Source: a virus. Taken from it: a stretch of 29,379 nt of DNA. The notes under the pieces were generated by a model that saw only the letters and a program-made list of their open reading frames with translations, had not been told where the DNA came from and did no database searches. Made by a program: the position numbers and the translations under genes. The DNA lies in the IMG/VR virus record IMGVR_UViG_3300030098_003298, positions 1 through 29,379 of that record; one strand, written 5' to 3'. Position 1 is the first letter of the stretch, and each line of letters opens with the position of its first letter. Shown piece after piece: positions 219 to 16,214 of this stretch.

Positions 219-689
219 ATGGCACCATTTAAAATGAAAGGATTCAGTGGATTCAAACAATCTTCACCAACAAAACTTGCAGGAGGAAGATATCTATGGA
301 CTGAGAATCCTGAAGGGGGATTGAAAAAAACACAAATATCTGCGTCAGAAGAAGCACGTTTACTAGATGAAGCAAGAAAAGCAGCAGAAGCAGGAGACAA
401 AAATTATATAGACCCACATCTTGATAGAACAGGTATAGAGCAATATAAAGAAGGTGGTAAATACGCTGGTTTAGGCCTTGATAGTATGGATAAAATACAT
501 GCTAAGTACGCTGAGTTAATGGAAAAGTATAAAGGTGATGACTATGTACTTGGTGGTGGTCATGTTCCTCACAAGGTTACCGAAGAACCTGATTACAAAC
601 TGATGAAACAATTAAAAAGCCAAATAGACTACGCTCAAACCGCTGCTGGGAAAGCAGAAACAAGAAAACAAGAAGCTTTAGATCAATAA
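219..689 (+). CDS. Tagged small phage protein 1 (FKMKG N-terminus)
   Basis: Hypothetical 156-residue protein with no enzyme motif I recognise. It opens with MAP followed by FKMKGFSGFKQSSPTK (residues 4-19), which matches the start of the protein encoded at 1029 exactly over 16 residues. The rest is hydrophilic and charged, with Ala/Glu/Lys-rich stretches likely to be helical (about 45-60 and 120-156) and Gly-rich turns between. There is no signal peptide or membrane segment. The ATG follows an A-rich leader without Shine-Dalgarno. A shared N-terminus on otherwise different proteins suggests a targeting or assembly tag, so I infer a virion-associated or capsid-packaged protein. Confidence 0.8.
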   Translation: MAPFKMKGFSGFKQSSPTKLAGGRYLWTENPEGGLKKTQISASEEARLLDEARKAAEAGDKNYIDPHLDRTGIEQYKEGGKYAGLGLDSMDKIHAKYAELMEKYKGDDYVLGGGHVPHKVTEEPDYKLMKQLKSQIDYAQTAAGKAETRKQEALDQ

Positions 690-690
690 T

Positions 691-1017
691 ATGGATTTTA
701 AAAGATATAAAGCGATAAGAGACGCGCATAAAGTTAAAAACGATGGATCTCCATTTGATCAAACTGAAGGTGTACCGGTAATGCGTTCAGGTATGAATAC
801 TTTGGATATAGATCCTAAAGCTTTAGGTACAATTTCAGGAAGTAACGCAGCTAGTATGCTACCATCTTACGCTGATATAGCTCCTGAAAAAGAAGAAGTA
901 GAGAAAGTAGATACAGAAGGTCCAACTGATGAAGAAATAGAAAGGGCTAATAGAGAGTATAAAGAAAAAGGAACAAAACAAGTAAAAGATATAGATTTTA
1001 CTAATAGAAATTATTAA
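691..1017 (+). CDS. Hypothetical small protein between tagged genes
   Basis: Unrecognised 108-residue hydrophilic protein. It starts one base after the preceding stop (TAATATGG), so it is probably translationally coupled to gene 219. It begins MDFKRYKAIRDAH and lacks the FKMKG tag of its neighbours. The C-terminal half (residues about 65-108) is strongly charged, Glu/Lys-rich and probably disordered or helical. No membrane segment, signal peptide or catalytic motif is visible. Its place inside the tagged-protein cluster suggests a related, possibly partner, role. Confidence 0.7.
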   Translation: MDFKRYKAIRDAHKVKNDGSPFDQTEGVPVMRSGMNTLDIDPKALGTISGSNAASMLPSYADIAPEKEEVEKVDTEGPTDEEIERANREYKEKGTKQVKDIDFTNRNY

Positions 1018-1028
1018 AACATAACAAT

Positions 1029-1871
1029 ATGGCATTTAAAATGAAGGGTTTTAGTGGATTTAAACAAAGCTCACCAACAAAAAACTATAAAAACCCACAA
1101 GAATATAAGGCTTTTAACATGGGTAATAAACCAACACCAGTAGAAACAGATGAAGATGGATCTCCTTTACCGTTTACGGGAGAATATGTAGACTTGGTTG
1201 ATCCTGAAACTGGGGATATTGTAAGTAGTACAAGACAAAATAAACCTATAAAGAAAACGCAGCATAGCAGCGAAGCTCAAGAAAGACTTCAAAAAATCCC
1301 AGTTGAAGATAGAGAAGCTGAATTCGATCCCCAAGGCGTAGCTCTGTCTGATGATTACAAATATCCTAAATTAAGAACAGACAAGGAAACTGGTGAAACA
1401 AAACAGTATAACCCTGTAACAAGATTGGAAGGTTATGATAAATATATGGCGATGAAAGGAGAACACGTGCAATCCCCATACGAAAAAACTAGAATGAAAG
1501 GTGGAAAATACCTTGCTAAAGGTGGTGAAGACGCTGAAAAGTACTGGAAGCAATATCAAAAAGATAATCCAGATACTTGGGAAGCAGATATGAATCAATA
1601 TTTAGAACGTAGAGGTAAAGGACTTAATCTTCAACAATTCCCTACAACTAAATTTGATAAGAAAAAATTAAGAGAATTAGCAAAAAAAGAAAGTAAAGCA
1701 GGTGAAAATATTAAAGATGCTGCAGACCTTGAGTATTTTTCTAAAAAGACTCAGAGGGGAGGATCGTATCTTCACCCAGATGAAGGAGGAGGTATAGAAC
1801 CTATAAATCCTAAAGACCTTGAACAATGGCAAAAAACAACATCAAGAAGAATTAGTGGGGATAAGGAGTAA
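1029..1871 (+). CDS. Tagged small phage protein 2 (FKMKG N-terminus)
   Basis: Hypothetical 280-residue hydrophilic protein. Residues 3-18 (FKMKGFSGFKQSSPTK) are identical to residues 4-19 of the protein at 219, while five of those 16 codons differ synonymously; beyond the tag the two proteins are unrelated by eye. The body is rich in Lys, Glu, Pro and Gly, with PETGD and KETGE turns and no hydrophobic core long enough for a membrane helix. The MAF start follows TAAAACATAACAAT, a typical leader here. No enzymatic motif is seen. I infer a virion cargo or assembly-associated protein because of the tag and the position upstream of the head genes. Confidence 0.8.
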   Translation: MAFKMKGFSGFKQSSPTKNYKNPQEYKAFNMGNKPTPVETDEDGSPLPFTGEYVDLVDPETGDIVSSTRQNKPIKKTQHSSEAQERLQKIPVEDREAEFDPQGVALSDDYKYPKLRTDKETGETKQYNPVTRLEGYDKYMAMKGEHVQSPYEKTRMKGGKYLAKGGEDAEKYWKQYQKDNPDTWEADMNQYLERRGKGLNLQQFPTTKFDKKKLRELAKKESKAGENIKDAADLEYFSKKTQRGGSYLHPDEGGGIEPINPKDLEQWQKTTSRRISGDKE

Positions 1872-1893
1872 TAAATAAATAAATAAAACAACT

Positions 1894-2721
1894 ATGGCAT
1901 TTAAAATGAAAGGATCCCCATATGCAATGGGTACACATAAAACAAAAAATACAGCTTTATACGCTAAAAAGAAGAAAACTGAGAGAGAACTTGGTAAAAC
2001 TACTACAACTTATACTAAAAAATCAAATATTTACGATAAAGATAAGTTTGATAAAAGTAAAGGTTCCTCAGGTTCTATTGGATGGAGTAAAAAATACTCT
2101 TACGAACCAGGTGGAGGAAGAAGTGGTGAGGGTGTAACCGCTGAAAAAGTAACTAAAGGAGGTGGTAAAACAGTACAATATAAAGACAAAGGAAAAACAA
2201 AGGTAATTACTAAGGAAGGTGAAGCTCCAAAAGTAAAAACTAAAAAATCTGGAAAACAGTATAGCAAAGCTATAGATAAAATAAAGAAAAAATCAGGACA
2301 TACAGAAAGACATTCTGGTATTTATCAAAAAGAACCAATAGATCCTCCAGGAAAGAAAAAAAATGATCCTTTTGGAGATGAAAAATTAAAAGGATTAACG
2401 CAGGAAAAAGCAAGAACAAGACCAGAGAAATTAAATCCTAAAGTGGAAGGGAAAATAAAAGTATTACATAAAGCCAGAACATCTCCAGATCCTGTAAAAC
2501 GTCCTACAGAAACTTTAACGGCTCGTTTAAAACCAAAAACAATCGAAAAAGCGATGAAAAAAGCAACACCATATGAAGGTTTTAAGAAAGAAGGGAAAAA
2601 AGTTGGCATGGTAAGAGATATGACAAAACCTAAGCAAGTTGCTAGAAAGAAAGCAAGGCTTGTTGAAAAACCTAAGAAGAAAACAGGGAAGATTAGTACA
2701 AAAACTATGGAATTAGAATAA
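1894..2721 (+). CDS. Tagged, extremely basic Lys-rich protein
   Basis: Unrecognised 275-residue protein opening with MAFKMKGSPYAMG, the same tag core as neighbouring genes. It is dominated by Lys with Thr, Gly and Pro, and has many KKK clusters across its length (for example residues 25-28, 131-133 and 263-265). There is almost no hydrophobic segment, so it is probably disordered or nucleic-acid-binding. Such composition recalls histone-like or DNA-condensing internal proteins of phage heads, but no specific family is recognised. The start follows AAATAAATAAATAAAACAACT. If the tag directs packaging, this member could neutralise or organise packaged DNA; that is inference. Confidence 0.75.
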   Translation: MAFKMKGSPYAMGTHKTKNTALYAKKKKTERELGKTTTTYTKKSNIYDKDKFDKSKGSSGSIGWSKKYSYEPGGGRSGEGVTAEKVTKGGGKTVQYKDKGKTKVITKEGEAPKVKTKKSGKQYSKAIDKIKKKSGHTERHSGIYQKEPIDPPGKKKNDPFGDEKLKGLTQEKARTRPEKLNPKVEGKIKVLHKARTSPDPVKRPTETLTARLKPKTIEKAMKKATPYEGFKKEGKKVGMVRDMTKPKQVARKKARLVEKPKKKTGKISTKTMELE

Positions 2722-2722
2722 A

Positions 2723-2739
2723 TATAGGAAAGACCTATA
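2723..2739 (+). other. Small hairpin in intergenic leader
   Basis: TATAGG and CCTATA form a perfect 6-base inverted repeat around a 5-base loop, starting just after the stop of the Lys-rich gene. No T-run follows, so it is not a convincing terminator. It overlaps the start of a leader segment that recurs upstream of the gene at 5180. Confidence 0.3.
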
Positions 2740-2774
2740 CCAATTAATATTAACCAAAAACCAAAACAAATGAC
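2731..2774 (+). repeat. Duplicated leader, copy 1
   Basis: The segment runs AGACCTATACCA, a short A/T spacer, AACCAAAAACC, then CAAATGAC. Copy 2 at 5105-5143 has AGACCTAAGCCA, AACCAAAACCCC and CAAATGAC in the same order. Here the ATG of CAAATGAC is the start codon of the 97-residue gene. Confidence 0.45.
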
Positions 2775-3063
2775 TTATTTGTATTACAAGACCAGTACAT
2801 ATAATACTGGCAACCAAAAACCGAATGAAAAAACTATTAACCAATGGAAACATCTTGCAGAAAAGAAAAACTGGAGGATAACTCAATTACCAAATGGTTT
2901 TTATCAAACAGAAGTATCAGAGCCAGATAGCGAAGAATGGCATGCTGTTACAAGAAGAGAAACAATTGAAGGTGCTGAAACCGCGATTAATGGTAGCATC
3001 GACCATTTTTCTAAAAAGTTAGAAGCTATACAAGGTCCTAAAGTAGTTAAAACATTTAAATAA
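2770..3063 (+). CDS. Hypothetical small protein (MTYLYYKT start)
   Basis: Unrecognised 97-residue soluble protein. It begins MTYLYYKT, loosely like the MLNYLYFRT start of the protein at 5180, and the two genes share an upstream leader. Residues 20-50 look like a small mixed alpha/beta unit containing QWKHLAEKKNW; a helical stretch follows at about 62-87. There are no membrane or catalytic motifs. It lacks the FKMKG tag although both flanking genes have it. The ATG was chosen because it lies at the end of the conserved leader. Confidence 0.7.
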   Translation: MTYLYYKTSTYNTGNQKPNEKTINQWKHLAEKKNWRITQLPNGFYQTEVSEPDSEEWHAVTRRETIEGAETAINGSIDHFSKKLEAIQGPKVVKTFK

Positions 3064-3070
3064 TAAAACT

Positions 3071-3271
3071 ATGGCGTTTAAAATGAGGGGAAACCCATTC
3101 AAGCAAACAGACCCTCCATCAACTAAAAAAGAAACTATTTTTAGAGGTAAAATTACGACTAGTAGTGACGGTACCAAGTATTATTATGATAAAGATGGGA
3201 ATGTTAAAAAAATGGTAACACCAGATGGTACTACTACTAAATATCCAAAAGGAAGTAGAAAATACAAATAG
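3071..3271 (+). CDS. Tagged very small protein 3 (MAFKMRG)
   Basis: Hypothetical 66-residue basic protein. It starts MAFKMRGNPFKQTDPPSTK, which aligns with the tag of the proteins at 219 and 1029 not only in MAFKM(K/R)G but also in the following FKQ and (P)STK/SPTK elements. The tag therefore seems to have two parts. The remainder is a short beta-rich stretch with repeated DGT turns (SSDGTKYYYDKDGN, then TPDGTTTKYPKG). Because it is so short, about a third of the protein is tag. The start follows AATAATAAAACT. No function is recognised beyond the probable membership of the tagged set. Confidence 0.75.
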   Translation: MAFKMRGNPFKQTDPPSTKKETIFRGKITTSSDGTKYYYDKDGNVKKMVTPDGTTTKYPKGSRKYK

Positions 3272-3293
3272 AAACACAATTAAATTAAATTAA

Positions 3294-4862
3294 ATGGAAT
3301 ACAATCAACCTAGTGAGATTGTCAAAGATCTTAACTTTGGCGAATCTGCAAAAACAAAAATTATTAAAGGTGTAGATAAACTTGCTAAAGCAGTTAAGTC
3401 TACTCTAGGAGCTTCAGGTAAATGTGTAATTTATGAAGACGCTCGAGGAAAACCGGTTATTACAAAAGACGGAGTAACAGTAGCAGAATCTGTTGTCTTA
3501 TATGATCCGGTTGAAAATATGGGTGCTACCTTAATTAAAGAAGCAGCTAGAAATACAGTGAGAGAAGCAGGGGATGGAACCACTACAGCTACAGTCCTTG
3601 CTGAAGCACTGATAAAAGAAGTTAATCATGAAAGATATCATGATAACTCTGTAAGAAATATAAAAGAAGGTATACAATCTGGTTATAAAAAAGTAACTGA
3701 ATACCTTAATAACATCTTAGTTCCAGTCAAAGGAGACATGTTAAAGAACGTTTCCTCTATAAGTTGCAATAACGATGCTGAATTAGGATCAATCATAGCA
3801 GAAGCTTATGAAAAAGTAGGAAAAGATGGTGTGGTTCTGATGGAAGAATCAGATACTGGAGACACATACGTTGAGGTTGTTGACGGTGTGCAAATAGAAT
3901 CTGGACTTACTTCACCTCACTTTATCACCGATACAGACAAACAAAGGGTTGTATTAGAAAATCCACTAGTATTAATTGTCGCATCGGAAATCCCAAACGT
4001 TAGAAAGATACAAAATGTATTAGAATTTGTTATAAAAAACAACAGATCTTTACTTATAGTTGCTAGAGTTAGTCAACAAGTAAAATCTGCGCTTTTAATG
4101 AATAAAGTTAAAGGTAATATCAAAGTTAATATTGTAGATTTACCAGGTTTTGGACCAACAAAACAAGATACAATTAAGGATTTGGCTATTTTAACAGGTG
4201 CTACAGTTATAAACGAAGAATTAGGTGATGATTTAGATGGTATATCGTTAAATGTACTAGGAGAAGTAGAAAAATCCGTTACAGATAGTAAAAATACAGT
4301 AATTACTACATCTGAAACAACAAAAGATGTTACGGAAAGAATAAAAGAAGTAAAAAAGTTACTTAAAAAAGAAAAAAATCCGTATTTAAAAAGAAAAATA
4401 GAAGATAGATTAGCAATGCTTTCTGGATCTGTAGGTATTGTACGTGTAGGAGCTGATTCTAAAGTAGAACTAAAAGAAAAGAAAGATAGAGTTGAGGATG
4501 CGATATATGCTACAAAAGCGGCCCTGAAAGAAGGTATCGTCCCAGGTGGTGGTATTGCCTTACTCAACGCTTCACAATGTATAACTCCAGATAGTATTGG
4601 TGAAACGATATTATTGAAAGCGATTAAATCACCATTTGAAACAATATTAGATAATGCTGGTTTTACTCAAACTTCTCCACGTCCAGAAAAAGGATTAGGT
4701 GTAGATGTGGTAACTGGTGAAAGTGTTGATATGATAGAATCTGGTATTATAGATCCAGTACTTGTAACAAAAACAGCGTTAAAAAATGCTATATCTGTAG
4801 TTTCTACTATAATATCTGCTGATTGTGTAATCTCAAATATAAGAGTAAATGAAAGCAGTTAA
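3294..4862 (+). CDS. groEL: Phage-encoded chaperonin GroEL (60 kDa)
   Basis: ATP-dependent chaperonin forming ring complexes that enclose folding proteins in the cytoplasm. The 522 residues align with bacterial GroEL throughout: ITKDGVTVAESV and ENMGA near the N-terminus, the nucleotide-binding GDGTTTATVLAEAL, an apical domain with NVRKIQNVLEFV and DLPGFG, EMKEKK-like ELKEKKDRVEDA, GGGIALL, and IDPVLVTKTAL near the end. The catalytic Asp of GDGTTTAT and the Asp of VEDA are present. The GGM-rich C-terminal tail is absent and the N-terminal TLGPKG is TLGASG. The gene precedes and overlaps groES by 14 bases, the reverse of the usual bacterial order. The likely client is the phage capsid protein, by analogy with other phages needing chaperonin for capsid folding. 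Confidence 0.97.
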   Translation: MEYNQPSEIVKDLNFGESAKTKIIKGVDKLAKAVKSTLGASGKCVIYEDARGKPVITKDGVTVAESVVLYDPVENMGATLIKEAARNTVREAGDGTTTATVLAEALIKEVNHERYHDNSVRNIKEGIQSGYKKVTEYLNNILVPVKGDMLKNVSSISCNNDAELGSIIAEAYEKVGKDGVVLMEESDTGDTYVEVVDGVQIESGLTSPHFITDTDKQRVVLENPLVLIVASEIPNVRKIQNVLEFVIKNNRSLLIVARVSQQVKSALLMNKVKGNIKVNIVDLPGFGPTKQDTIKDLAILTGATVINEELGDDLDGISLNVLGEVEKSVTDSKNTVITTSETTKDVTERIKEVKKLLKKEKNPYLKRKIEDRLAMLSGSVGIVRVGADSKVELKEKKDRVEDAIYATKAALKEGIVPGGGIALLNASQCITPDSIGETILLKAIKSPFETILDNAGFTQTSPRPEKGLGVDVVTGESVDMIESGIIDPVLVTKTALKNAISVVSTIISADCVISNIRVNESS

Positions 4863-5106
4863 TTATTACTTAATAGTAGAAAAAATAAAAGATGAGGAAA
4901 AAAAAGTAGGTGGATTAATACTTACTGAAGAGACAGATGATGACAATAGGTACTTAAAGGCAAAAGTTATATCTATTGGAAATATTGTTGAGGGAGTAAA
5001 AGAAGATGATATAATATACTACGATAAACACGCTGGACACGGTATCCAGCATAAAGATAAATTTTACCAAGTCATTAAACAAATGGACGTGGTATTAATA
5101 GATTAG
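4849..5106 (+). CDS. groES: Phage-encoded co-chaperonin GroES
   Basis: Lid of the GroEL folding cage. The 85 residues follow the GroES pattern: an N-terminal strand (AVNYYLIVEKI), a mobile loop with GGLILTEE (residues about 21-28; the GroES consensus is GG(I/L)(V/L)L), then KAKVISIGNIVEGVKEDDIIYYDKHAG and a closing strand ending MDVVLID. It is about ten residues shorter than typical bacterial GroES, mainly in the loops. The gene starts inside the groEL 3' end, so the two are probably translationally coupled. It supplies the partner for the adjacent GroEL, suggesting the phage brings a complete chaperonin pair rather than replacing only one host part. Confidence 0.93.
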   Translation: MKAVNYYLIVEKIKDEEKKVGGLILTEETDDDNRYLKAKVISIGNIVEGVKEDDIIYYDKHAGHGIQHKDKFYQVIKQMDVVLID

Positions 5107-5143
5107 ACCTAAGCCAGAAACCAAAACCCCAAACTCAAATGAC
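5105..5143 (+). repeat. Duplicated leader, copy 2, with a micro-ORF start
   Basis: Second copy of the leader at 2731-2774, with AGACCTA, CCA, AACCAAAA and CAAATGAC in the same order. Here the ATG opens a 15-codon micro-ORF (5139-5186) whose stop overlaps the start of the gene at 5180. Whether it is translated is unknown. Confidence 0.45.
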
Positions 5144-5179
5144 AATTAACCTAATTATTAATCAAAAAATCCAAAAAAA

Positions 5180-5590
5180 ATGTTAAATTATTTGTATTTT
5201 AGAACAGAAGCCGCTGTTGGAGACGACGATGGTTCAGGAAACTCAGCTCTATATCCAGCTACTTCTTTTAGAGGTGGTGAGATGACTAGTGATACTAGTA
5301 TGACTTTGTTTTTTCAAAACTTGAAAAGACCAGATCATCACGGTAACAGCCTAGTAGTAGACAACGCTGACAATTTACCTTTATGTGATACTGTAGTTCT
5401 TAATATTACAGCTAACAAAGGTAAAGAAGTATTAGAAGCTATTGTTGGAGCTATGAATGCTGGAATGAACTCTGGTTTTATTGTAGTTGGTGACGATGCT
5501 GCTGACTCTGCTGGCGGAACTCAGTATATATCTTCTGATATTACTTCTGTTGGAACTATTACGATCAACGCTGTTTACGATAACTCTTAA
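5180..5590 (+). CDS. Small phage virion-type protein, function unknown
   Basis: Protein of 136 residues with alternating beta strands and Gly/Ser/Asp turns and no membrane segment. It begins MLNYLYFRTEAAVGDDDGSG, has SDTSMTLFFQNL (residues 38-49), a helix-like KGKEVLEAIVGAMN (80-93), and ends in strands (SVGTITINAVYDNS). From memory, proteins of this type are frequent next to head genes of uncultured marine phages, but I cannot name a family with assured function; a small capsid or tail decoration protein is possible. It lies between groES and the winged-helix-like gene, downstream of a leader also found upstream of the gene at 2770. Confidence 0.75.
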   Translation: MLNYLYFRTEAAVGDDDGSGNSALYPATSFRGGEMTSDTSMTLFFQNLKRPDHHGNSLVVDNADNLPLCDTVVLNITANKGKEVLEAIVGAMNAGMNSGFIVVGDDAADSAGGTQYISSDITSVGTITINAVYDNS

Positions 5591-5596
5591 TAACAG

Positions 5597-6037
5597 TTGA
5601 GATTAACCGCGCAAGATCTGCGTGAAATGAACATCCTTAAGTACTACAGGCTCACACGAAAGTGGGCCTGTAAGACTTACGGGTTAACAGATGCAGATTT
5701 AGAATTATTAATTTATTTAGATTGTAAAGAAAGATTTACACGACAAGAATTTATAGACGGAGTTTATACCATGAGTTGGGATAAAAACCGTTGGGAGAGA
5801 CTAAGAAGAGAGGGTTGGATAGAGGTTTGGAGGCATCGTAACAGAACGACTATTAAATACAGTGTTTTCAAAACATCATTTAAGTGTTCTCAATTAATAA
5901 GTAGAATTTACAGAGTACTTCTAGGTGAAGAAGATCTTCCGATATCAGAAAGAAGTATATTTTTTAATAACAAATCGTATACAGATAAAGTCTATAATAA
6001 AGCTATAGATGATATGATTAAAGATAAAGATAGATAA
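5597..6037 (+). CDS. Winged-helix-like protein; TTG or internal ATG start
   Basis: Basic 146-residue protein, probably a DNA-binding winged helix. Residues about 17-75 (RLTRKWACKTYGLTDADLELL, then FTRQEF, then WDKNRWERLRREGWIEVW) look like consecutive helices followed by a wing (RHRNRTTIKYSV). The longest frame starts at TTG 5597, with a stop codon two triplets upstream; the next start is ATG 5627 (residue 11). The first 90 bases are clearly more G/C-rich, with C/G-ending codons, than the rest of the gene, and can fold into a multi-arm structure. From memory, similar proteins occur in other marine phages. Possible roles are a regulator of late genes or a packaging protein; neither is shown. 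Confidence 0.75.
   Translation: MRLTAQDLREMNILKYYRLTRKWACKTYGLTDADLELLIYLDCKERFTRQEFIDGVYTMSWDKNRWERLRREGWIEVWRHRNRTTIKYSVFKTSFKCSQLISRIYRVLLGEEDLPISERSIFFNNKSYTDKVYNKAIDDMIKDKDR
5603..5687 (+). ncRNA. Candidate structured RNA in the 5' end of the winged-helix gene
   Basis: Three helices fit together as a junction. P1 pairs TTAACC (5603-5608) with GGTTAA (5682-5687). P2 pairs GCGCA (5609-5613) with TGCGT (5619-5623) around AGATC. P3 pairs ACAGGCTCAC (5646-5655) with GTGGGCCTGT (5662-5671), with one G-U pair and loop ACGAAA, extended by TAAGT (5638-5642) with ACTTA (5675-5679) across a 3x3 internal loop. The raised G/C content is confined to this segment. It overlaps both candidate start codons or lies beside them, so it could control translation of the gene. 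Protein coding constraint alone is the alternative. Confidence 0.4.
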
Positions 6038-6038
6038 T

Positions 6039-6410
6039 ATGGCATTTAGAATGAAACCTCCATCTTTTTGGAAAAAACCTAAGAAACGAAAAGAAGAGTT
6101 TGAAGTTATTAGAAAGAATCTAGATAACGGAATTCTTGGTGAGGCTAATAATGATAATACTATATTTATTAATAATGATATACCTGAAAATGGCCCAAAA
6201 GAAAAAGAAGTCATTGCACATGAAAAGCAACATATGAAAGACATGAAAGATGGTATATTAGGTTACACAGACGGTCATATAAAATGGAAAGGTAAAAAAT
6301 ATGAACGTAAAGATGGTAAAATTAATTACAAAGGAAAATGGATAGAAGAAGGTTATAAAGATTTTCCTTGGGAAAAACGAGCGTATAAAGCTGGTAATAA
6401 AGCAAAATAA
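6039..6410 (+). CDS. Tagged HEKQH zinc-metalloprotease-like protein
   Basis: Protein of 123 residues with a short tag-like start MAFRMKPPSFWKK, a variant of MAFKMKG. Residues 61-65 are HEKQH within VIAHEKQHMKDM, the HExxH zinc-binding and catalytic motif of zincin proteases. Downstream, FPWEKRAYKAG (residues 109-119) has Glu112 in a position that could be the third zinc ligand, as in gluzincins with an E-x-x-A-Y pattern. An acidic strand (NTIFINNDIPE) precedes the motif. It is very small for a protease, so it may be a minimal catalytic domain. It overlaps no neighbour and follows the winged-helix stop by one base. No serine-type prohead protease is seen in this window, so a maturation or virion-delivered peptidase role is worth considering. 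Proteolytic activity is inferred. Confidence 0.75.
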   Translation: MAFRMKPPSFWKKPKKRKEEFEVIRKNLDNGILGEANNDNTIFINNDIPENGPKEKEVIAHEKQHMKDMKDGILGYTDGHIKWKGKKYERKDGKINYKGKWIEEGYKDFPWEKRAYKAGNKAK

Positions 6411-6414
6411 AACT

Positions 6415-7185
6415 ATGGCAAGAAAATCAAAAACAAAATTTAAAATGAAGGGACATACCCTTCCTGGAATAAACCAAAAAACAGAGACAGTTAACAAACC
6501 AGATGGTAGATCAGAATCTTCAGCATTCCAAATGCAAGAATCTGGATCTAGTCCAAATAAAATAGTTGGATTAGCTGCTGGTGCTTTGTTAGGGCAATCA
6601 AAATTTGGAAAGAAAATAGGGCAGGGTGTTAAAAACCTTGGTAAAAATCTTTTTAAAGGAGGAGCTGCTGGAGCTTTAGCTGGTGGAGGTGGAGGAGAAG
6701 AGAGTTCAGATGCCGCTGCTGGAGCAGAGTTATTAAAGGCAGAAGCTAAAGAAGCTATGGAAGGATCTCCTGTTACTATGAAAAAAAAACTAAGATCGGG
6801 TACTAGTTCAACTGTAGGTGGAAAATTAGGTGGAAGTTCTTATAAAACAGAAAGTCCATTTAATCAAAATGGTGATGATATGACGTTTTCTGAAAAAGTA
6901 GATAAAGGATTAATTACTACAGATGGAGAATCCATGGAAGAAATGAGAGAAAAAGAAATGGAACCATATAAAGAAATGGATGATGCTGATTTATTTTTAC
7001 ATGGGAAACATAGAGATAAAGACGGTAAAGTACAAAATATAAACTGGGCTCCTAATCCAACTTCAGCTGAACAAATCAGAAGAGATCAAAGAGAATTAGG
7101 AGATATGATGTTTGAGGCAAAATATGGAGGTAAAATAAATCCAAAAACTATGGATTTTTATAAAAAAGGTGTAAGATATCAATAA
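6415..7185 (+). CDS. Tagged protein with Gly/Ala-rich segment
   Basis: Unrecognised 256-residue protein beginning MARKSKTKFKMKGHTLPGINQ; the FKMKG core is present but displaced by seven residues compared with the others. Residues about 44-90 form a Gly/Ala-rich amphipathic or weakly hydrophobic stretch (VGLAAGALLGQSKFG, GGAAGALAGGGGG) that could insert in or span a membrane. Later there are short SP-containing basic pieces (GSPVTMKKKLRSG, ESPFNQ) and a charged C-terminal half with MEEMREKEMEPYKEM. The gene starts four bases after the protease-like gene and is followed by the holin-like gene after two bases. A virion-ejected or membrane-contacting cargo protein is one possibility; there is no firm family. 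Confidence 0.75.
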   Translation: MARKSKTKFKMKGHTLPGINQKTETVNKPDGRSESSAFQMQESGSSPNKIVGLAAGALLGQSKFGKKIGQGVKNLGKNLFKGGAAGALAGGGGGEESSDAAAGAELLKAEAKEAMEGSPVTMKKKLRSGTSSTVGGKLGGSSYKTESPFNQNGDDMTFSEKVDKGLITTDGESMEEMREKEMEPYKEMDDADLFLHGKHRDKDGKVQNINWAPNPTSAEQIRRDQRELGDMMFEAKYGGKINPKTMDFYKKGVRYQ

Positions 7186-7187
7186 TT

Positions 7188-7580
7188 ATGAATATATTAG
7201 GAATGATTACAGGTGGAGGAGCTAAAGATCTTGTTGAAGGAGTAGGTGGAGTTATAGACAGTCTACATACTTCTGAAGAAGAAAAGCTTGAAGCTAATCA
7301 AAAAATAAAAGAGTTAGTATCCAACTACGAAGTAGAAATGGAGAAGACAATAACAGAAAGATGGAAAGTTGATATGAATTCAGATTCATGGCTTTCTAAA
7401 AATATACGACCTATGGTTCTTATATTTCTAGTTGTAGCAACAGTGTTGATGATATTTATCGATGCTGGTGTAGTACAATTTGAAGTAAAGGATACTTGGG
7501 TTGATTTATTACAATTAGTATTAATAACAGTGATCGGTGCTTATTTTGGTGGTAGATCACTAGAAAAAGTAAAAAAATAA
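7188..7580 (+). CDS. Holin-like membrane protein (GTA_holin_3TM type)
   Basis: Small inner-membrane protein of 130 residues, likely a holin that releases the lytic enzyme or lets it reach the wall at lysis. The N-terminal part (residues 1-60) is amphipathic and charged (HTSEEEKLEANQKIKEL). SWLSKNIRPMVLIFLVVATVLMIF (residues 67-90) contains the first membrane helix and the W-L-x-x-x-x-RP element typical of this family; a second helix is VDLLQLVLITVIGAYFGGRS (105-124), ending in a basic tail. No endolysin gene is recognised in the window, so the lysis partner must lie elsewhere. Family assignment is by pattern recognition. Confidence 0.8.
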   Translation: MNILGMITGGGAKDLVEGVGGVIDSLHTSEEEKLEANQKIKELVSNYEVEMEKTITERWKVDMNSDSWLSKNIRPMVLIFLVVATVLMIFIDAGVVQFEVKDTWVDLLQLVLITVIGAYFGGRSLEKVKK

Positions 7581-7584
7581 AAAT

Positions 7585-7989
7585 ATGGCAAAAACACAAC
7601 ACACTGATTGGGCTTTTGGACAAATGGGTAGTTTGTTCTTAGATGCTTCAGGAGCAGCCAGTCCTCCAGACGGTAAAGTATTTACAGCAATAACATTTTT
7701 AGCAGATACTGTATTTGATGCTTCAGGTGGATTAGTAGCTCAAACTAAACGTGATGTAGAAAACGGAGCAAATACTGGTCCTATTTTAGCTACTGTAGAA
7801 GGTTTAGAATGGATTGGTACAGAAGCTGCTGCTCATAATGTATCTGATGGATCTGAAACTACAATTTCAGGTTCTGGTGGTTTACAAATAGACGCATCTA
7901 ATACATTTCCAAAGGGAGTTACTATTTATGGTAGATGGATAGAAATTGATCTTACATCTGGAATGATCATTGCTTATATAGGAGAATAA
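7585..7989 (+). CDS. Small phage surface-type protein (GVTIYGRW motif)
   Basis: Beta-rich 134-residue protein with no membrane segment. The C-terminal part, FPKGVTIYGRWIEIDLTSGMIIAYIGE (residues about 108-134), is the recognisable part; from memory, similar endings recur in proteins of uncultured marine phages. The N-terminal half has Gly/Ala/Asp turns (GSLFLDASGAASPPDG) and a central TFLADTVFDASGGL. Its stop overlaps the ATG of the LamG gene (TAATG), so the two are probably made together. A decoration or receptor-binding accessory role is plausible; no enzymatic function is visible. Confidence 0.75.
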   Translation: MAKTQHTDWAFGQMGSLFLDASGAASPPDGKVFTAITFLADTVFDASGGLVAQTKRDVENGANTGPILATVEGLEWIGTEAAAHNVSDGSETTISGSGGLQIDASNTFPKGVTIYGRWIEIDLTSGMIIAYIGE

Positions 7990-8783
7990 TGTTAGGATTA
8001 GGGAATAGCGCTTCAGAAAATAGCGAGTGTGATGTTCATAATTTACGATCTCTATCTTTTGATGGTACGAACGACAATTTAAATGCAGATAATATATGTA
8101 GTACCTTATATGCAGCGTTTACAGATGCAGAAGATCTAAATACAAACTTGGCTTTTTCAATAGCTATGTGGGTTACAGTAGAAACAATGAGTAGTACTGG
8201 TGTTGTTTTTAATTTAAGAGTAGGAACAAGTAGTGATAACCATATGAATTTACAATGGCATGGAAGTCAAAATAAAATTAGATGGACTTGTAAATTTAAT
8301 GGTACTGCTGAGGTTGCAGCTGATGGAGAAACTAGTAGTAGTGGAGTGTCTGAAAACGACGGGAAATGGCACCATATAGTTGGTACAGTTGCAGATGGTG
8401 GGAATTGTGAACTTTGGATTAATGGAGTAAAAAGATCTACACATAGCGTTGCTCAAACATTAGTAGGAGAAGTTTCTCAATGTAATATAGGTACAAATAC
8501 TACAGAGAATAATTTTTGGAACGGTAACATAGATGAAGTGGGCATGTGGACAAGAGTTTTAACAGATGCTGAAATTTTAGCAATATCTAGAGGAGGAGGT
8601 CAATTAGATATCGGTCCACACTCTGCTTATAGTACAAATCTTGTTGCTTTGTATAGATTTGAAGAACAAGGTGTAACGGTTGCCGCTAATGAAGTTACTA
8701 GAGCCGCGGGAACAGGTGCAACAATGGTAAATAGTCCAACAGCATCAACAAATGTTCCGTGGGAAGCTAATAGTTCCAATTAA
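7989..8783 (+). CDS. LamG/concanavalin-like jelly-roll domain protein
   Basis: Virion surface protein candidate of 264 residues. It shows the LamG-type order: LSFDGTNDNL near residue 14, FSIAMWVTVE (about 55-64), DGKWHHIVGTV (about 121-131), LWINGVKR, and NFWNGNIDEVGMWTRVLTDAEI (about 177-198). These strands and the H-H-I...N-G-V signature match concanavalin-like lectin domains that bind carbohydrates or proteins. The short C-terminal extension (LVALYRFEEQG...) is also typical. There is no signal peptide, as expected for a phage protein assembled in the cytoplasm. It probably aids attachment to the host surface or forms a head fibre; its distance from the tail genes leaves this open. Confidence 0.85.
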   Translation: MLGLGNSASENSECDVHNLRSLSFDGTNDNLNADNICSTLYAAFTDAEDLNTNLAFSIAMWVTVETMSSTGVVFNLRVGTSSDNHMNLQWHGSQNKIRWTCKFNGTAEVAADGETSSSGVSENDGKWHHIVGTVADGGNCELWINGVKRSTHSVAQTLVGEVSQCNIGTNTTENNFWNGNIDEVGMWTRVLTDAEILAISRGGGQLDIGPHSAYSTNLVALYRFEEQGVTVAANEVTRAAGTGATMVNSPTASTNVPWEANSSN

Positions 8784-8792
8784 TAAGTAAAT

Positions 8793-9017
8793 ATGAAAAA
8801 ACACGTAATAATAAATGCAAGCGAAGTATCTTCAATAGATTTTAGTAAAGTTTTAGAAACCTCTGCGGATACATTAAGATATTCTTTAGATGGTAGTAAA
8901 ACGTTTGTAAAATTTGAAGGTGATACACCAAGTTTTTTAAGCGGTAAAACGCAATATGATCATAACGAAATAATAGCAATTTTACAAAGTAGTGATTGGT
9001 CTTCGGACGAAGGATAA
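8793..9017 (+). CDS. Small conserved-type hypothetical protein
   Basis: A 74-residue soluble protein, MKKHVIINASEVSSIDFSKV at the start, with a central SLDGSKTFVKFEG and a helix-like HNEIIAILQSSDW near the end. There are no catalytic or membrane motifs. It follows the LamG gene by nine bases and is probably co-transcribed with it. I recall similar small proteins beside LamG genes in marine Bacteroidota phages, but no function is known to me. Confidence 0.75.
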   Translation: MKKHVIINASEVSSIDFSKVLETSADTLRYSLDGSKTFVKFEGDTPSFLSGKTQYDHNEIIAILQSSDWSSDEG

Positions 9018-9041
9018 ATAATAATAATTAAATTAAATAAA

Positions 9042-9305
9042 ATGGCAAAAAGAAAAACACCGAAGGTTGCAAAACCTTCTAAAATCAATAAAGAAGATTT
9101 AAATTCTTTACAAGAATTAGTTAGTAATATAAATCAATCTCAAATGCAAATTGGTTTATTAGAATCACAGAAGCATAATATACTTCACTCTATAAATATT
9201 TTTAACGATAGATTACTATCTCTTAGAGAAAAATTTAAAGAAGATTATGGTACTGATGATATAAATATTACCGACGGAACAATAAATAAAAATGAAATTA
9301 ATTAG
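9042..9305 (+). CDS. Short coiled-coil protein
   Basis: An 87-residue protein with a basic N-terminus (MAKRKTPKVAKPSKINK) followed by one long heptad-like helix at about residues 18-68 (LQELVSNINQSQMQIGLLESQ and onward), then a short acidic tail. A coiled-coil oligomer is likely; the function is unknown. It starts after the leader AATTAAATTAAATAAA and its 3' end overlaps the next gene by 14 bases, the same overlap length as groEL/groES. Confidence 0.75.
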   Translation: MAKRKTPKVAKPSKINKEDLNSLQELVSNINQSQMQIGLLESQKHNILHSINIFNDRLLSLREKFKEDYGTDDINITDGTINKNEIN

Positions 9306-9510
9306 AAAAATAACAGTAGGTAAGGACTATAAAAATGATGCTATGCATTATGCGGTTGGTCAAGAGGTATACGGTGGTCATAAAATAAACGATATAATAG
9401 AAGAAGAAGATAAATATTCTATTTATATTAAAAAAAATCATGATGTATTACCTTGGAAGGATTTTAATAAAAACATGGCTATATCTATTGAGTATAATTT
9501 AGAATATTAA
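9292..9510 (+). CDS. Small hypothetical protein (YGGHKI motif)
   Basis: A 72-residue, probably beta-rich protein: KITVGKDYKNDAMHYAVGQ, then VYGGHKINDIIEEEDKYSIYIKK, then a C-terminal WKDFNKNMAISIEYNLEY. It overlaps both neighbours (14 bases upstream, TAATG downstream), which argues for real translation. The general pattern is familiar from Bacteroidota phages, always without known function. There are no metal or catalytic motifs of note. Confidence 0.75.
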   Translation: MKLIRKITVGKDYKNDAMHYAVGQEVYGGHKINDIIEEEDKYSIYIKKNHDVLPWKDFNKNMAISIEYNLEY

Positions 9511-10100
9511 TGAAAGCACCTTTTGATTTTGTTATAAGACCAAAAGGAAATAGATACAATAATACGACTAAAATTGGTGATAAAGATCTTATTTTAAACA
9601 CAGAGATATACAATCATGAATTTGTAAATAGAGAAGCTATTGTTGAATCTGTTCCTACGGCTTTTGAAACAAAAATAAAACCCGGAGATACTATTATAAC
9701 CCATCACAATGTATTTAGAAGATGGCATAATGTTAAAGGTAAAGAAAAAAATAGTAGAAGCTTTTTTAACGAAAATACATATCTTATAAAGGAAGATCAG
9801 ATATTTTTATACAAAAGAAATAACAAATGGATTGCTCCAAATGGTTATTGTTTTGTACAACCTATAAAATCTAGAGACGAAATAGACATAGGTAGAGAAG
9901 AACCATTAACGGGTATTGTTAAATATACTGATGGTTTATTTAATAAAAAAGAATTAGTTGGATTTAGACCTAGTTCAGAATATGAATTTATAATCGATGG
10001 TAAAAGATTATATAGAGTTATGAATAAATTTATTACAATTAAATATGAATACCAAGGAAACGAAGAAGAGTATAATCCAAGCTGGGCGCAAAGCAGTTGA
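9510..10100 (+). CDS. Tandem GroES-like beta-barrel protein
   Basis: A 196-residue protein that looks like two GroES-like barrels in a row. First unit: FDFVIRPKGNR (residues 5-15, like the GroES start), REAIVESVP, IKPGDTIITHH (56-66) and YLIKEDQIFLYK (91-102, like the GroES closing strand). Second unit: NGYCFVQPIKSR (111-122), LTGIVKY, then IIDGKRLYRVMNKFITIKYEY (161-181). A clear mobile loop with GG(I/L)(V/L)L is missing, so its pairing with GroEL is uncertain; it could be a degenerate or specialised co-chaperonin, or just share the fold. It is directly upstream of the terminase genes and overlaps the next gene by 56 bases. Confidence 0.65.
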   Translation: MKAPFDFVIRPKGNRYNNTTKIGDKDLILNTEIYNHEFVNREAIVESVPTAFETKIKPGDTIITHHNVFRRWHNVKGKEKNSRSFFNENTYLIKEDQIFLYKRNNKWIAPNGYCFVQPIKSRDEIDIGREEPLTGIVKYTDGLFNKKELVGFRPSSEYEFIIDGKRLYRVMNKFITIKYEYQGNEEEYNPSWAQSS

Positions 10101-10323
10101 TGAATTAATCAAAGTAGCAGAAGAAAAGATTATTACTAATACAGAAGATGATGTTTCTGCTGATAGATTAAAAAATGCTGCGGCTACTAAAAAGTTAGCT
10201 ATATTTGATGCGTTTGAAATACTTAATAGAATCCAAGAAGAAGAAAATCTTTTAGAAGGAAAAGAACCTGAAGAAAAAGAAGAAAGAGTTTTTAAAGGAT
10301 TCGCAGAAGGTAGATCAAAATAA
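10045..10323 (+). CDS. Candidate small terminase subunit (position-based)
   Basis: A 92-residue charged, helical protein: TKKSIIQAGRKAVDELIKVAEEKI, then DVSADRLKNAAATKKLAIFDAFEILNRIQEEENLL and a Glu/Lys-rich end. It starts inside the 3' end of the previous gene and its stop overlaps the ATG of the large terminase (TAATG). Small terminase subunits are short, helical, and placed just before the large subunit, which is the only basis for this call. No helix-turn-helix is obvious. An unrelated terminase-linked protein is possible. Confidence 0.6.
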   Translation: MNTKETKKSIIQAGRKAVDELIKVAEEKIITNTEDDVSADRLKNAAATKKLAIFDAFEILNRIQEEENLLEGKEPEEKEERVFKGFAEGRSK

Positions 10324-12539
10324 TGTACGAGCAAAGTTTATATAAAATAATAGAACCTATAAAACGTACTACCATTACACGTATGAATCGTGGTAAAAAA
10401 TGGAAATACGGTTATAATAAAGAACACGATATTATTGTAATATCTAAAACTGGTGTAATAGGTGAAATATATGAAATACAAAACCTTAAAATAGCATTAC
10501 CCAAAGCTCCTAAAAAAATATTTAAACACGAGAAAAATAAATGGGTGAAACAAGAATACCCAAAAGAACTTAATCGTATTAAAAATATATTTGATTGGAA
10601 GGTATATCCAGACGAAGCAAAAGAACAATGGTATGATTATATAGATGAGGAGTTTAAAAATAGAGATGAAGGTTTTTGGTTTATAAATAAAGGAATACCA
10701 ACGTATTTAACAGGTACGCACTATATGTATCTTCAGTGGAGCAAGATTGATGTAGGTGCTCCAGATTTTAGAGAAGCCAATAGATTGTTTTTTATATTCT
10801 GGGAGGCTTGTAAGGCAGATAAAAGATGTTATGGAATGTGTTACCTTAAAAACCGTCGTTCTGGGTTTTCTTTCATGTCATCAGCTGAAGCGGTTAATTT
10901 AGCAACGTTAGCAAGTGATAGTAGATATGGGATACTTTCTAAAACAGGTGCTGATGCAAAGAAAATGTTTACCGATAAAGTTGTTCCAATTAGTGTTAAC
11001 TATCCATTTTTCTTTAAACCAATTCAAGATGGTATGGATCGTCCTAAAACAGAATTAGCGTATAGAGTACCAGCTAGTAAGTTTACAAGAAAGAAAATAA
11101 CAAATAACGAACAATTAGAAGATATACAGGGTTTAGATACTACTATAGATTGGAAAAATACTGGTGATAATAGTTATGATGGTGAAAAACTTAATCTACT
11201 AGTACATGATGAAAGTGGTAAATGGGAAAGACCAGATAATATATTAAACAATTGGAGAGTCACAAAAACATGTTTACGATTAGGTAGTAGAATCGTTGGA
11301 AAGTGCATGATGGGGTCAACTTCTAACGCCCTAGATAAAGGTGGAGATAACTTTAAAAAACTATACAATGCTTCCGATGTCACACAACGAAATCGTAATG
11401 GACAAACAAAGTCTGGTTTATATTCTCTCTTTATCCCAATGGAATGGAACTACGAAGGATTTATTGACGAATACGGACATCCAGTTTTTGATAATCCACA
11501 TAATGATGTATACGACCCAGACGGTGAACTAATAGATGTAGGAATAGTAGAGCATTGGGAAAATGAAGCTGAAGGTTTAAAGTCAGATCACGACGCGTTA
11601 AATGAATTTTACAGACAGTTCCCAAGAACAGAAGAACACGCGTTTAGAGATGAGGCTTTAAATAGTATATTTAATCTAGTAAAGTTATATGAACAAATAG
11701 ATTATAATGACGGGGTTGGAAGTTCACTAGGTATTTCAACTGGAAATTTTCAATGGGTAAATGGTATAAAAGACACACAAGTAATATTTTATCCAGATCA
11801 AAAAGGAAGATTCAAAATTAGTTGGACACCACCTATACACATGCAAAACAAATCTTACATGAAAAATGGAGTAAGATACCCAGGTAATGAACACATGGGT
11901 GCTTTTGGATGTGATAGTTATGATATATCAGGAACAGTAGATGGAAGAGGATCTAATGGAGCGTTACATGGATTAACAAAGTTTAGCATGGAAGATTGTC
12001 CACCTAACCAGTTTTTCTTAGAATATATAGCTAGACCACAAACAGCTGAAATATTTTTTGAAGATGTATTAATGTCTCTAGTATTTTATGGCATGCCACT
12101 GCTTGCGGAAAATAACAAACCTAGATTATTGTACTATTTAAGAAGAAGAGGATATAGAGGGTATTCTATGAATAGACCAGATAAACTTTGGAATAAATTA
12201 TCTGTAGCAGAAAAAGAAATAGGTGGAATCCCAAACTCTAGTGAAGATATAAAACAAGCCCATGCAGCAGCGATAGAAATGTATATACAACAACACGTTG
12301 GACATTTAGGAGATGGAAATTATGGAAGTGTATATTTTAATAAAACATTAAATGATTGGGCTAGATTTGATATAACAAAAAGAACTAAATTTGATGCAAC
12401 AATAAGTTCTGGATTAGCAATAATGGCTTGTAATAGACATTTATATACGCCTAATGCAAAAATTGAGAAACCAAAATTAAACATAAGTATAGCTAAGTAT
12501 TCTAATAAAGGCCACTTATCTAAAATAATTAAAGAGTAA
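10323..12539 (+). CDS. terL: Terminase large subunit (packaging ATPase/nuclease)
   Basis: Motor that pumps DNA into the procapsid and cuts it, docked on the portal. The 738 residues have the two expected halves. ATPase: a Walker-A-like LKNRRSGFSFMSS (175-187), Walker B LLVHDESG (292-299, Asp296-Glu297), and a coupling motif MGSTSN (330-335). FYRQFPRTEEHAFRDEA (429-445) links to the RNase-H-like nuclease, with Asp531 in GAFGCDSYD, possibly Glu596, and Asp691 in KFDATISSGLA. The Walker A variant with Arg-Arg-Ser-Gly instead of the classic GxGKS is, from memory, usual in phages of Bacteroidota. It is followed by the portal gene after one base. Confidence 0.93.
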   Translation: MYEQSLYKIIEPIKRTTITRMNRGKKWKYGYNKEHDIIVISKTGVIGEIYEIQNLKIALPKAPKKIFKHEKNKWVKQEYPKELNRIKNIFDWKVYPDEAKEQWYDYIDEEFKNRDEGFWFINKGIPTYLTGTHYMYLQWSKIDVGAPDFREANRLFFIFWEACKADKRCYGMCYLKNRRSGFSFMSSAEAVNLATLASDSRYGILSKTGADAKKMFTDKVVPISVNYPFFFKPIQDGMDRPKTELAYRVPASKFTRKKITNNEQLEDIQGLDTTIDWKNTGDNSYDGEKLNLLVHDESGKWERPDNILNNWRVTKTCLRLGSRIVGKCMMGSTSNALDKGGDNFKKLYNASDVTQRNRNGQTKSGLYSLFIPMEWNYEGFIDEYGHPVFDNPHNDVYDPDGELIDVGIVEHWENEAEGLKSDHDALNEFYRQFPRTEEHAFRDEALNSIFNLVKLYEQIDYNDGVGSSLGISTGNFQWVNGIKDTQVIFYPDQKGRFKISWTPPIHMQNKSYMKNGVRYPGNEHMGAFGCDSYDISGTVDGRGSNGALHGLTKFSMEDCPPNQFFLEYIARPQTAEIFFEDVLMSLVFYGMPLLAENNKPRLLYYLRRRGYRGYSMNRPDKLWNKLSVAEKEIGGIPNSSEDIKQAHAAAIEMYIQQHVGHLGDGNYGSVYFNKTLNDWARFDITKRTKFDATISSGLAIMACNRHLYTPNAKIEKPKLNISIAKYSNKGHLSKIIKE

Positions 12540-12540
12540 T

Positions 12541-14967: not shown

Positions 14968-14974
14968 AAACAAA

Positions 14975-15002
14975 TTTATTAATTATATAATATTATATTA
15001 TG
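14975..15002 (+). promoter_or_regulatory. A/T-rich leader, copy 1
   Basis: TTTATTAATTATATAATAT followed by TATATTATG is closely matched by 17822-17851 upstream of the next MAKK-type gene. It may be a shared promoter or translation leader for late genes. No -35/-10 pair can be assigned. Confidence 0.35.
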
Positions 15003-16214
15003 GCAAAAAAAGAAAAAAAAGAAGTAGTTGAAAAGGCTACTGAACAACCAAAAGCAGATGAAAAGGTTGAAAAATTAAAGGTTAAAAAACCTAAAATGAA
15101 AAAGTTTGAGGAACCAGAAGATGGTATTGTTAAAGTAGATCTTAAAGAATTAGCTAAAAAAGCTGAAGATGTAGTAAAGGTTGATTTATCAAAACCTATA
15201 GAAGACATTAAGGTTCCAGATGAAAAACCTATAGAAGAAGTAAAAGAACAAAAAACTGAAAATCCAGTAGAAGAAAACATTGATACACCTGTTATAGAAG
15301 AGATTACAAACGAAGAAGAGGTTAAACAAGTTGAAGAAGTTGTTGAACAAGCTGTAACTGAAAATGTAGAAACAGGAAGAAAGCTTCCAGAAGGAGTTGA
15401 GAAATTAATGAACTTTATGAATGATACTGGTGGTGATATTAATGATTATGTAAAACTTAATAGAGATTATTCTGAAATGGATAATCATACTTTATTAAAA
15501 GAATATTATCAACAAACAAAACCTCATTTACAATCTGATGAAGTTGATTTTTTAATGGAAGATCAATTTTCTTATGATGAAGAAATTGATGAGGAAAAAG
15601 ATATTAAAAGAAAAAAACTAGCGTTAAAAGAGCAAGTTGCCGACGCTAAAGCTCAATTGGAAGAGCGTAAATCCAAATACTATGAAGATATCAAAGCTGG
15701 GTCAAAGTTGACCTCTGAACAACAAAAAGCTATTGATTTCTTTAATAGACACAACAAAGAATCTGAAAACAATCAAAAGATTCAAAAGCGGTCTCAAGAT
15801 ATTTTTGCGAATAAAACTGAAAATGTTTTCAATAAAGATTTCAAAGGTTTTGAATATAATGTTGGGGACAAGAAGTATAGGTTTAACGTTAAAGATGTGA
15901 ACGAAGTTAAAGAAACCCAAAGTGACATGAATAATTTTGTCAAAAAGTTTTTGAATAAAAATAATGAAATGGAAGATGCTAGGGGTTACCATAAATCTTT
16001 ATTTACTGCTATGAATTCAGATGCTGTTGCTAAACATTTTTATGAACAAGGTAAAGCTGATGCTTTAAAAGAAAGCGTGGCTAATTCTAAAAACGTTAAT
16101 ATGGATCCAAGATTACAACATAGCGAACCTATTGATAATAGTGGCCTTAAATTTAGAGTGGTTGGTGATAGTACAGATGATTTCAAATTCAAATTTAAAG
16201 GAAAACGAAAATAA
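15000..16214 (+). CDS. Probable head scaffolding protein
   Basis: The position between portal and major capsid genes, and the composition, indicate a scaffold. The 404 residues are highly charged; the first 130 are Lys/Glu/Val/Pro-rich and probably disordered, and helices dominate after about 190 (EEIDEEKDIKRKKLALKEQ, a coiled coil). The C-terminus is strongly basic, FKFKFKGKRK; in many scaffolds such a basic C-terminal element binds the capsid protein. The same FK-x-KG pattern appears in the N-terminal tags of the small proteins upstream. No protease domain is visible in it. The leader before it (TTATTAATTATATAATATT) closely resembles that of the gene at 17849, as does the MAKK-rich N-terminus. 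Confidence 0.75.
   Translation: MAKKEKKEVVEKATEQPKADEKVEKLKVKKPKMKKFEEPEDGIVKVDLKELAKKAEDVVKVDLSKPIEDIKVPDEKPIEEVKEQKTENPVEENIDTPVIEEITNEEEVKQVEEVVEQAVTENVETGRKLPEGVEKLMNFMNDTGGDINDYVKLNRDYSEMDNHTLLKEYYQQTKPHLQSDEVDFLMEDQFSYDEEIDEEKDIKRKKLALKEQVADAKAQLEERKSKYYEDIKAGSKLTSEQQKAIDFFNRHNKESENNQKIQKRSQDIFANKTENVFNKDFKGFEYNVGDKKYRFNVKDVNEVKETQSDMNNFVKKFLNKNNEMEDARGYHKSLFTAMNSDAVAKHFYEQGKADALKESVANSKNVNMDPRLQHSEPIDNSGLKFRVVGDSTDDFKFKFKGKRK

Follow-up and report, generated by a model that had tools for sequence, protein, structure and literature searches.

The window analyzed here, namely the whole stretch of 29,379 nucleotides that makes up the virus record IMGVR_UViG_3300030098_003298 in IMG/VR, encodes six proteins that share a short basic motif, FKMKG, near the N-terminus. 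We consider that FKMKG is probably a short, unstructured address tag, by which small, late-made proteins are loaded into the procapsid in a clade of podovirus-like marine flavophages. That the tagged proteins are packaged is what we infer from their sequences and by analogy with known phages. The record was found without end repeats, which is often the sign of a fragment.

All of the six open reading frames (ORFs) are on the plus strand, and their starts and N-termini are those given in the preliminary description of this DNA. ORF 1 (219-689; 156 amino acids) starts with MAPFKMKG (FKMKG at 228-242) and ORF 2 (1029-1871; 280 amino acids) with MAFKMKG; the tag and a second element together form FKMKGFSGFKQSSPTK in both (228-275 and 1035-1082, respectively). 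ORF 3 (1894-2721; 275 amino acids) is very Lys-rich and starts with MAFKMKG (FKMKG at 1900-1914), while ORF 4 (3071-3271; 66 amino acids) starts with MAFKMRG (FKMRG at 3077-3091) followed by FKQTDPPSTK (3098-3127). ORF 5 (6039-6410; 123 amino acids), a minigluzincin-like metallopeptidase, starts with MAFRMKP (FRMKP at 6045-6059). In ORF 6 (6415-7185; 256 amino acids), which has a Gly/Ala-rich body, the N-terminus is MARKSKTKFKMKG and FKMKG (6439-6453) stands behind a basic leader. The second element, FKQ..(S/P)TK, was recovered in ORFs 1, 2, and 4, as previously described. The bodies had been regarded as unrelated, and blastp among the six proteins indeed detected no strong similarity outside the common N-terminus: ORFs 1 and 2 matched at residues 3-19 (100% identity, E-value of 4e-7), and ORFs 3 and 4 at residues 1-50, the tag included (E-value of 0.009). 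The body of ORF 2 had no database match, and the family searches with ORF 3 gave none either. The body of ORF 4 is weakly RHS-repeat-like and beta (Pfam RHS_repeat with an E-value of 0.0011, below the Pfam cut-off). The ORF 6 body clustered with others into a group of nine members across eight contigs, although a scan with the single sequence found no relatives.

The tag is strongly confined to N-termini. To guard against selection bias, we conducted a tag-blind survey of 80 contigs retrieved via an untagged conserved neighbor (5597-6037, plus strand; 146 amino acids), and of the window itself (81 contigs in total). The neighbor, of which the start codon is apparently TTG and which matched phrog_17028 weakly, showed 86-97% identity among the 80 contigs. 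FKMKG occurred 55 times within the first 45 residues of proteins and once in the other 208,852 residues. A wider tag pattern was found in 108 of the 1275 ORFs on the late strand but in none of the 246 ORFs on the opposite strand, with zero to nine tags per contig. In 13 long contigs, which include the window and some of which had been chosen by the tag itself, F[KR][ML][KR][GSP] occurred 41 times in the first 20 residues and twice elsewhere, against an expectation of 0.28 from shuffled N-termini. Chance or composition as the source of the tag is ruled out by this N-terminal confinement and by the expectation from shuffled N-termini.

A scan with a DNA pattern including the start codon hit at least 120 viral contigs, and a core gene of the window's clade was found on 98 loci among the matches listed; the remaining loci carried other clade-like genes, with the exception of L116 and of L130, which is very short. 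In the cellular genomes of 85,000 species, the exact start-tag was matched 27 times, a number near the 15 or so that we estimated for chance; most of these matches were in short frames, in frames nested in others, or in unrelated genes. The closest named phages are podovirus-like flavophages, namely MW202828 (portal, 49.5%), the Flavobacterium elemo phages (39%), and Cellulophaga phage phi38:1 (38%), with Pachyviridae as more distant relatives. The tag was not found around the head module of the cultured relatives MW202828, elemo, phi38:1, phi19:3, and Gundel, and a 23-residue tag query had no match in a phage collection, albeit such a short query makes for a weak search. IMG/VR abounds in uncultured relatives, with two scans giving at least 600 rows each. 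The literature search for FKMKG found no paper.

The motif can be written as (A)-F-K-M-K-G-(F/S/P)-(S/P), with A, F, K, M/L, K, G, and then (F/S/P)-(S/P/N) as the informative columns; the hydrophobic F and M/L are the most informative. It either follows M-A/G immediately or is preceded by a basic leader, as in the tags displaced by several residues from the start (the N-terminus of ORF 6, MSGPFKMKG, and MKKSGFKMKG). The second element, in a S(P/A)xK-like form, was found in 40% of the tagged proteins but in 2.8% (40/1411) of the untagged ORFs, often 0-14 residues after the tag and mostly within 14. On the ORF 5 protein, AlphaFold2 predicted the tag to be poorly ordered or disordered. Furthermore, the tag is conserved at the protein level. 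The 16 codons of the segment common to ORFs 1 and 2 differ at seven nucleotides, all of which are synonymous (including a Ser codon changed from TCT to AGC), with no amino acid difference, and the Gly codon of the tag over the body clusters was GGT in 32, GGG in 15, GGC in 20, and GGA in 36 cases. Because the peptide stays fixed and variation at synonymous sites is free, we regard the tag as being selected as a peptide.

The bodies behind the tag are diverse. By their bodies, the 278 distinct tagged proteins from the loci listed formed 137-175 clusters at the thresholds used, but the true number may be smaller because Lys-rich bodies evolve fast and some of them may be remote homologues. A large cluster of 71-73 members was apparently joined by Lys-rich low-complexity stretches and shrank to about 32 under a coverage rule. 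The same tag was also found on different bodies. The search of viral contigs with ORF 1 retrieved a single relative, L354, which matched residues 1-16 only: MAPFKMKGFSGFKQ is common to the two proteins, and their bodies differ. The L354 body was found again in L097 behind another version of the tag. Likewise, the search with ORF 2 yielded five loci, in which the match was limited to the first 43 or 58 residues. The number of body clusters and the occurrence of the same tag on different bodies rule out a single homologous family that inherited its N-terminus by descent, an outcome that the preliminary description had named as fatal to its proposal. In L184, an ORF on the minus strand (8172-8915) bears the tag motif at both ends, starting with MAFKLKGG and ending with SSGFKMKGSHHYGKKKKV.

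The tagged proteins are small (median of 125 amino acids) and basic, with 17% Lys. Their net charge per 100 amino acids is +8.1, compared to -1.3 for the conserved untagged late ORFs, and 95% of them are free of Cys, compared to 46% of the latter. This Lys-rich, Cys-poor composition is that of internal DNA-associated proteins, and we count it in favor of packaging. Altogether, the 108 late-strand ORFs, their composition, and the many body clusters bear out the idea of a tag recurring on diverse small basic proteins of the late module. Separately, Cys-bearing modules (CWKGYERVPGTxPGxKGSCRK..., KVCLPAAKIR) recur in small proteins, both tagged and untagged, in L123, L175, and L210-L212.

The strongest available support for packaging, albeit indirect, is homology to two proteins of Cellulophaga phage phi40:1, gp080 and gp099, which are annotated as structural on the basis of tandem mass spectrometry (MS/MS) experiments. 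In the clade studied here, the gp80 family is mostly untagged, and many of its members start with SPI(K/R)LKQ or similar. Nevertheless, the gp80 body of L311 is preceded by MAFKMKSPLKRQ (MAFKMKSPLK...), and that of the L239-L242 contig, a C-terminal domain, by MAFKLKSQSPLEQ (MAFKLKSQSPL...). The gp99 family bears variable tag-like N-termini, such as MYKQKGSTFYNDLKPPFKARGGVSPMK (MYKQKG...SPMK; L213-L215) and MSYQESKSPLK (L231-L234). With these gp80 and gp99 homologues being tagged or tag-like, proteins whose presence in virions has been measured thus have relatives that bear the tag. No homologues of phi40:1 gp69, gp77, gp100, and gp101 were found in the loci examined.

A second line of evidence comes from the ORF in the scaffold position (15000-16214, plus strand; 404 amino acids), which ends in FKFKFKGKRK (16182-16211). 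This ORF has the features of a scaffold: the slot between the portal and major capsid proteins, a predicted helical structure, and a conserved basic C-terminus. F/Y/L-K/R-phi-K/R was present in the last 25 residues of 109 of the 109 homologues, with FKFKIK being the commonest form, and the density of this four-residue motif there exceeds that in the remainder of the protein about 150-fold. Of the 28 families that comprise 15 or more members, the scaffold-position family alone had this motif conserved at a terminus. AlphaFold2 predicted a helical core and a disordered tail at residues 370-404. As phi40:1 gp092, which occupies the same slot, is on the MS/MS list, the protein may by analogy be retained in the virion at least partly. 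The adjacent major capsid protein (phrog_13704; 16238-17776, plus strand) carries an acidic stretch, LPDLMEKEAE(I/V)FG, in its N-terminal region (LPDLMEKEAEIFG at 16355-16393 in the window). In P22, basic residues of the scaffold C-terminus (R293/K296) anchor on the acidic N-arm of the coat protein (PMC9965877), and the acidic stretch found here would correspond to that arm. P22 gp8 and the protein in question are alike in having a basic terminal element on a protein encoded between the portal and major capsid proteins, here the conserved FKFKIK tail, but the element is a helix-turn-helix in P22 and a predicted disordered tail here, for which coat binding is a proposal only. In a tag-free elemo phage, the protein in the scaffold slot (L203, 24673-25692) starts with MFKMKLEG, a similar motif at the opposite terminus.

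Since the motif of the scaffold tail is related to the tag, the P22 precedent exists, and the coat protein has an acidic stretch, we propose that the tag and the scaffold tail use the same site. During assembly, the tag would attach, like the scaffold, to the inside of the coat or to the core of the scaffold; the basic cargo would then be trapped with the DNA and possibly be ejected into the next host, and the procapsid may be where the tagged metallopeptidase acts. In the most speculative step, the tag would copy the coat-binding C-terminal tail of the scaffold (FKFKIK) and dock on the acidic arm of the capsid protein. If one motif serves both the scaffold C-terminus and the cargo N-termini, any protein gaining FKMKG would compete for the docking sites of the scaffold on the coat and be packaged, making up an open, modular, encapsulin-like loading system, in which the motif would be freely exchanged between at least 100 protein families of an abundant group of marine phages. 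We put forward this broader scheme tentatively, as a possibility that we do not favor outright.

The metallopeptidase encoded by ORF 5 deserves a separate description. Its family comprised 140 members, nearly all of which start with M(A/G)(F/Y)K(L/M). In 59 aligned members, M1, H61, E62, H65, and E112 were invariant, and A2 and K4 were conserved in at least 90%. The protein thus carries the minigluzincin signature of HExxH (HEKQH at 6219-6233) and a downstream Glu ligand (E112 at 6372-6374). The family profile partially matched selecase MJ1213 (Peptidase_M90-like; E-value of 4e-4), while Foldseek against selecase/abylysin-type folds pointed in the same direction with a best E-value of 0.08, which is not significant, a probability of 0.98, and template modeling scores of 0.34-0.40. 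The phage members share the HExxH...E motif with minigluzincins and selecase but are set apart by the tag and by an additional beta region. No homologue in cultured phages was found by tblastn, albeit weak PHROG matches exist. As a speculation from sequence, the protein is a candidate procapsid protease.

Several observations weigh against the proposals above. Within the gp80 family, clear tags are limited to a few members. In the distant loci L105, L171, and L196, FKMKG is kept on the metallopeptidase while the scaffolds end in ...KLRIKK or ...KLSIKKNKFN, so that the tag and the scaffold tail do not strictly covary; basic K-phi-K scaffold tails were also found in tag-free relatives. By the pattern used, 38 of the 81 surveyed contigs, many of which are short, had no tag, and the tagged set is not fixed. 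The motif is short and is met more easily by Lys-rich proteins. Finally, no tagged phage is known in culture.

It is unlikely, in our view, that the tag anchors proteins outside the particle, as decoration or head-fiber anchors. Decoration could also be served by short N-terminal anchors of diverse late proteins, and virion membership alone cannot separate the inside from the outside, but the interior is favored by the resemblance of the tag to the scaffold tail and by a composition strongly rich in Lys and poor in Cys, and the tagged metallopeptidase is easier to explain inside the procapsid. We regard as very unlikely that the phage GroEL/GroES recognize the tag as a peptide signal and that the tagged proteins are chaperonin clients. 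Both in the window and in most relatives, the genes of GroEL and GroES have tagged genes on either side, but GroES or GroEL is likewise encoded by elemo, MW202828, and phi19:3, which lack the tag; tagged genes are found at a distance from groEL as well, where the late module ends (the L210-L212 and L213-L215 contigs); and most of the tagged bodies, being short and Lys-rich, would hardly need a chaperonin. Similarly little credence is given to the tag as a DNA-binding or general nucleoid motif, with the proteins following DNA rather than the coat or scaffold: a basic tag on basic proteins would agree with it, but plain charge would not require F and M/L as the most informative columns, and the tag is strongly conserved on a folded metallopeptidase as well. 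It is highly improbable that the common start is a DNA- or RNA-level element (a translation enhancer, a regulatory element, or a recombination site) with the peptide as a by-product; in spite of its location at the start codon and the visible DNA-level repeats, the tag can stand several residues away from the start and is absent from many late genes, and the free Gly codons and the synonymous-only differences between ORFs 1 and 2 speak against an element at the DNA level.

As for the rest of the window, one strand carries GroEL/GroES, holin, terminase, portal protein, the scaffold-position ORF, capsid protein, and tail genes. GroEL (3294-4862, plus strand) lies within the cluster of tagged genes and is followed by a GroES-like co-chaperonin (4849-5106, plus strand), both assigned from sequence and from conservation in relatives. 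This pair (3294-5106) is conserved in relatives, and in the elemo phages it is on the opposite strand. The terminase large subunit (phrog_6681; 10323-12539) and portal protein (phrog_6547; 12541-14967) were assigned by PHROG matches, both on the plus strand. The C-terminal end of the tail protein at 22505-26917 comprises several GCTDPxAxNYxPxAxxDDGSC repeats, a type known from secreted proteins of Bacteroidota. In related contigs, giant ORFs of 3065-4518 amino acids follow the tail genes (L218-L220 contig, 2028-15584; L210-L212 contig, 30503-40666; L213-L215 contig, 30090-39287), and the one of 4518 amino acids has SPLK close to its N-terminus.

If address tagging by FKMKG holds true, a probable location inside the virion could be assigned to hundreds of proteins of marine phages that have no match otherwise, and cargo proteins of uncultured phages could be found by a sequence rule; the cargo of T4 includes injected anti-restriction factors. 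A transferable docking motif would also provide a simple evolutionary route for swapping injected proteins, and foreign proteins could be loaded into phage heads by means of a short peptide.

Among the known systems, encapsulin cargo-loading peptides are short linear motifs that load unrelated cargo into an HK97-type shell. They are mostly C-terminal and serve one or few enzymes in a compartment without DNA, whereas the tag described here is N-terminal. The gp45 and gp46 proteins of crAss001, a phage of Bacteroidota, are cargo packaged in the virion and ejected (PMC10172136), and these proteins, as well as the ejection proteins of the P22/T7 type, resemble the proposed cargo in being packaged and ejected; the crAss001 cargo proteins are large, however, and no common tag was found described in PMC10172136, from which both "targeting" and "scaffold" are absent as words. 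The internal proteins of T4 are diverse and have a conserved capsid-targeting sequence (CTS) alone in common (PMC3012670), and analogous propeptides are known in the giant phage SPN3US (PMC5694885). The likeness to the T4 CTS noted in the preliminary description holds in anatomy: in T4 (IPI-III, Alt, and core proteins) as in this clade, a short N-terminal sequence is the sole common feature of diverse small Lys-rich proteins (PMC3012670, PMC5694885), and loading into the prohead core is proposed. On the other hand, the sequence and the phage group are unrelated, and the body families are far more numerous here. The cleavage consensus of the T4-type prohead protease is (L/I)xE, and inspection for this consensus alone showed that none of the six window proteins has it within residues 1-20. 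Altogether, we judge that the tag works like a capsid-targeting sequence without belonging to the CTS family of T4.

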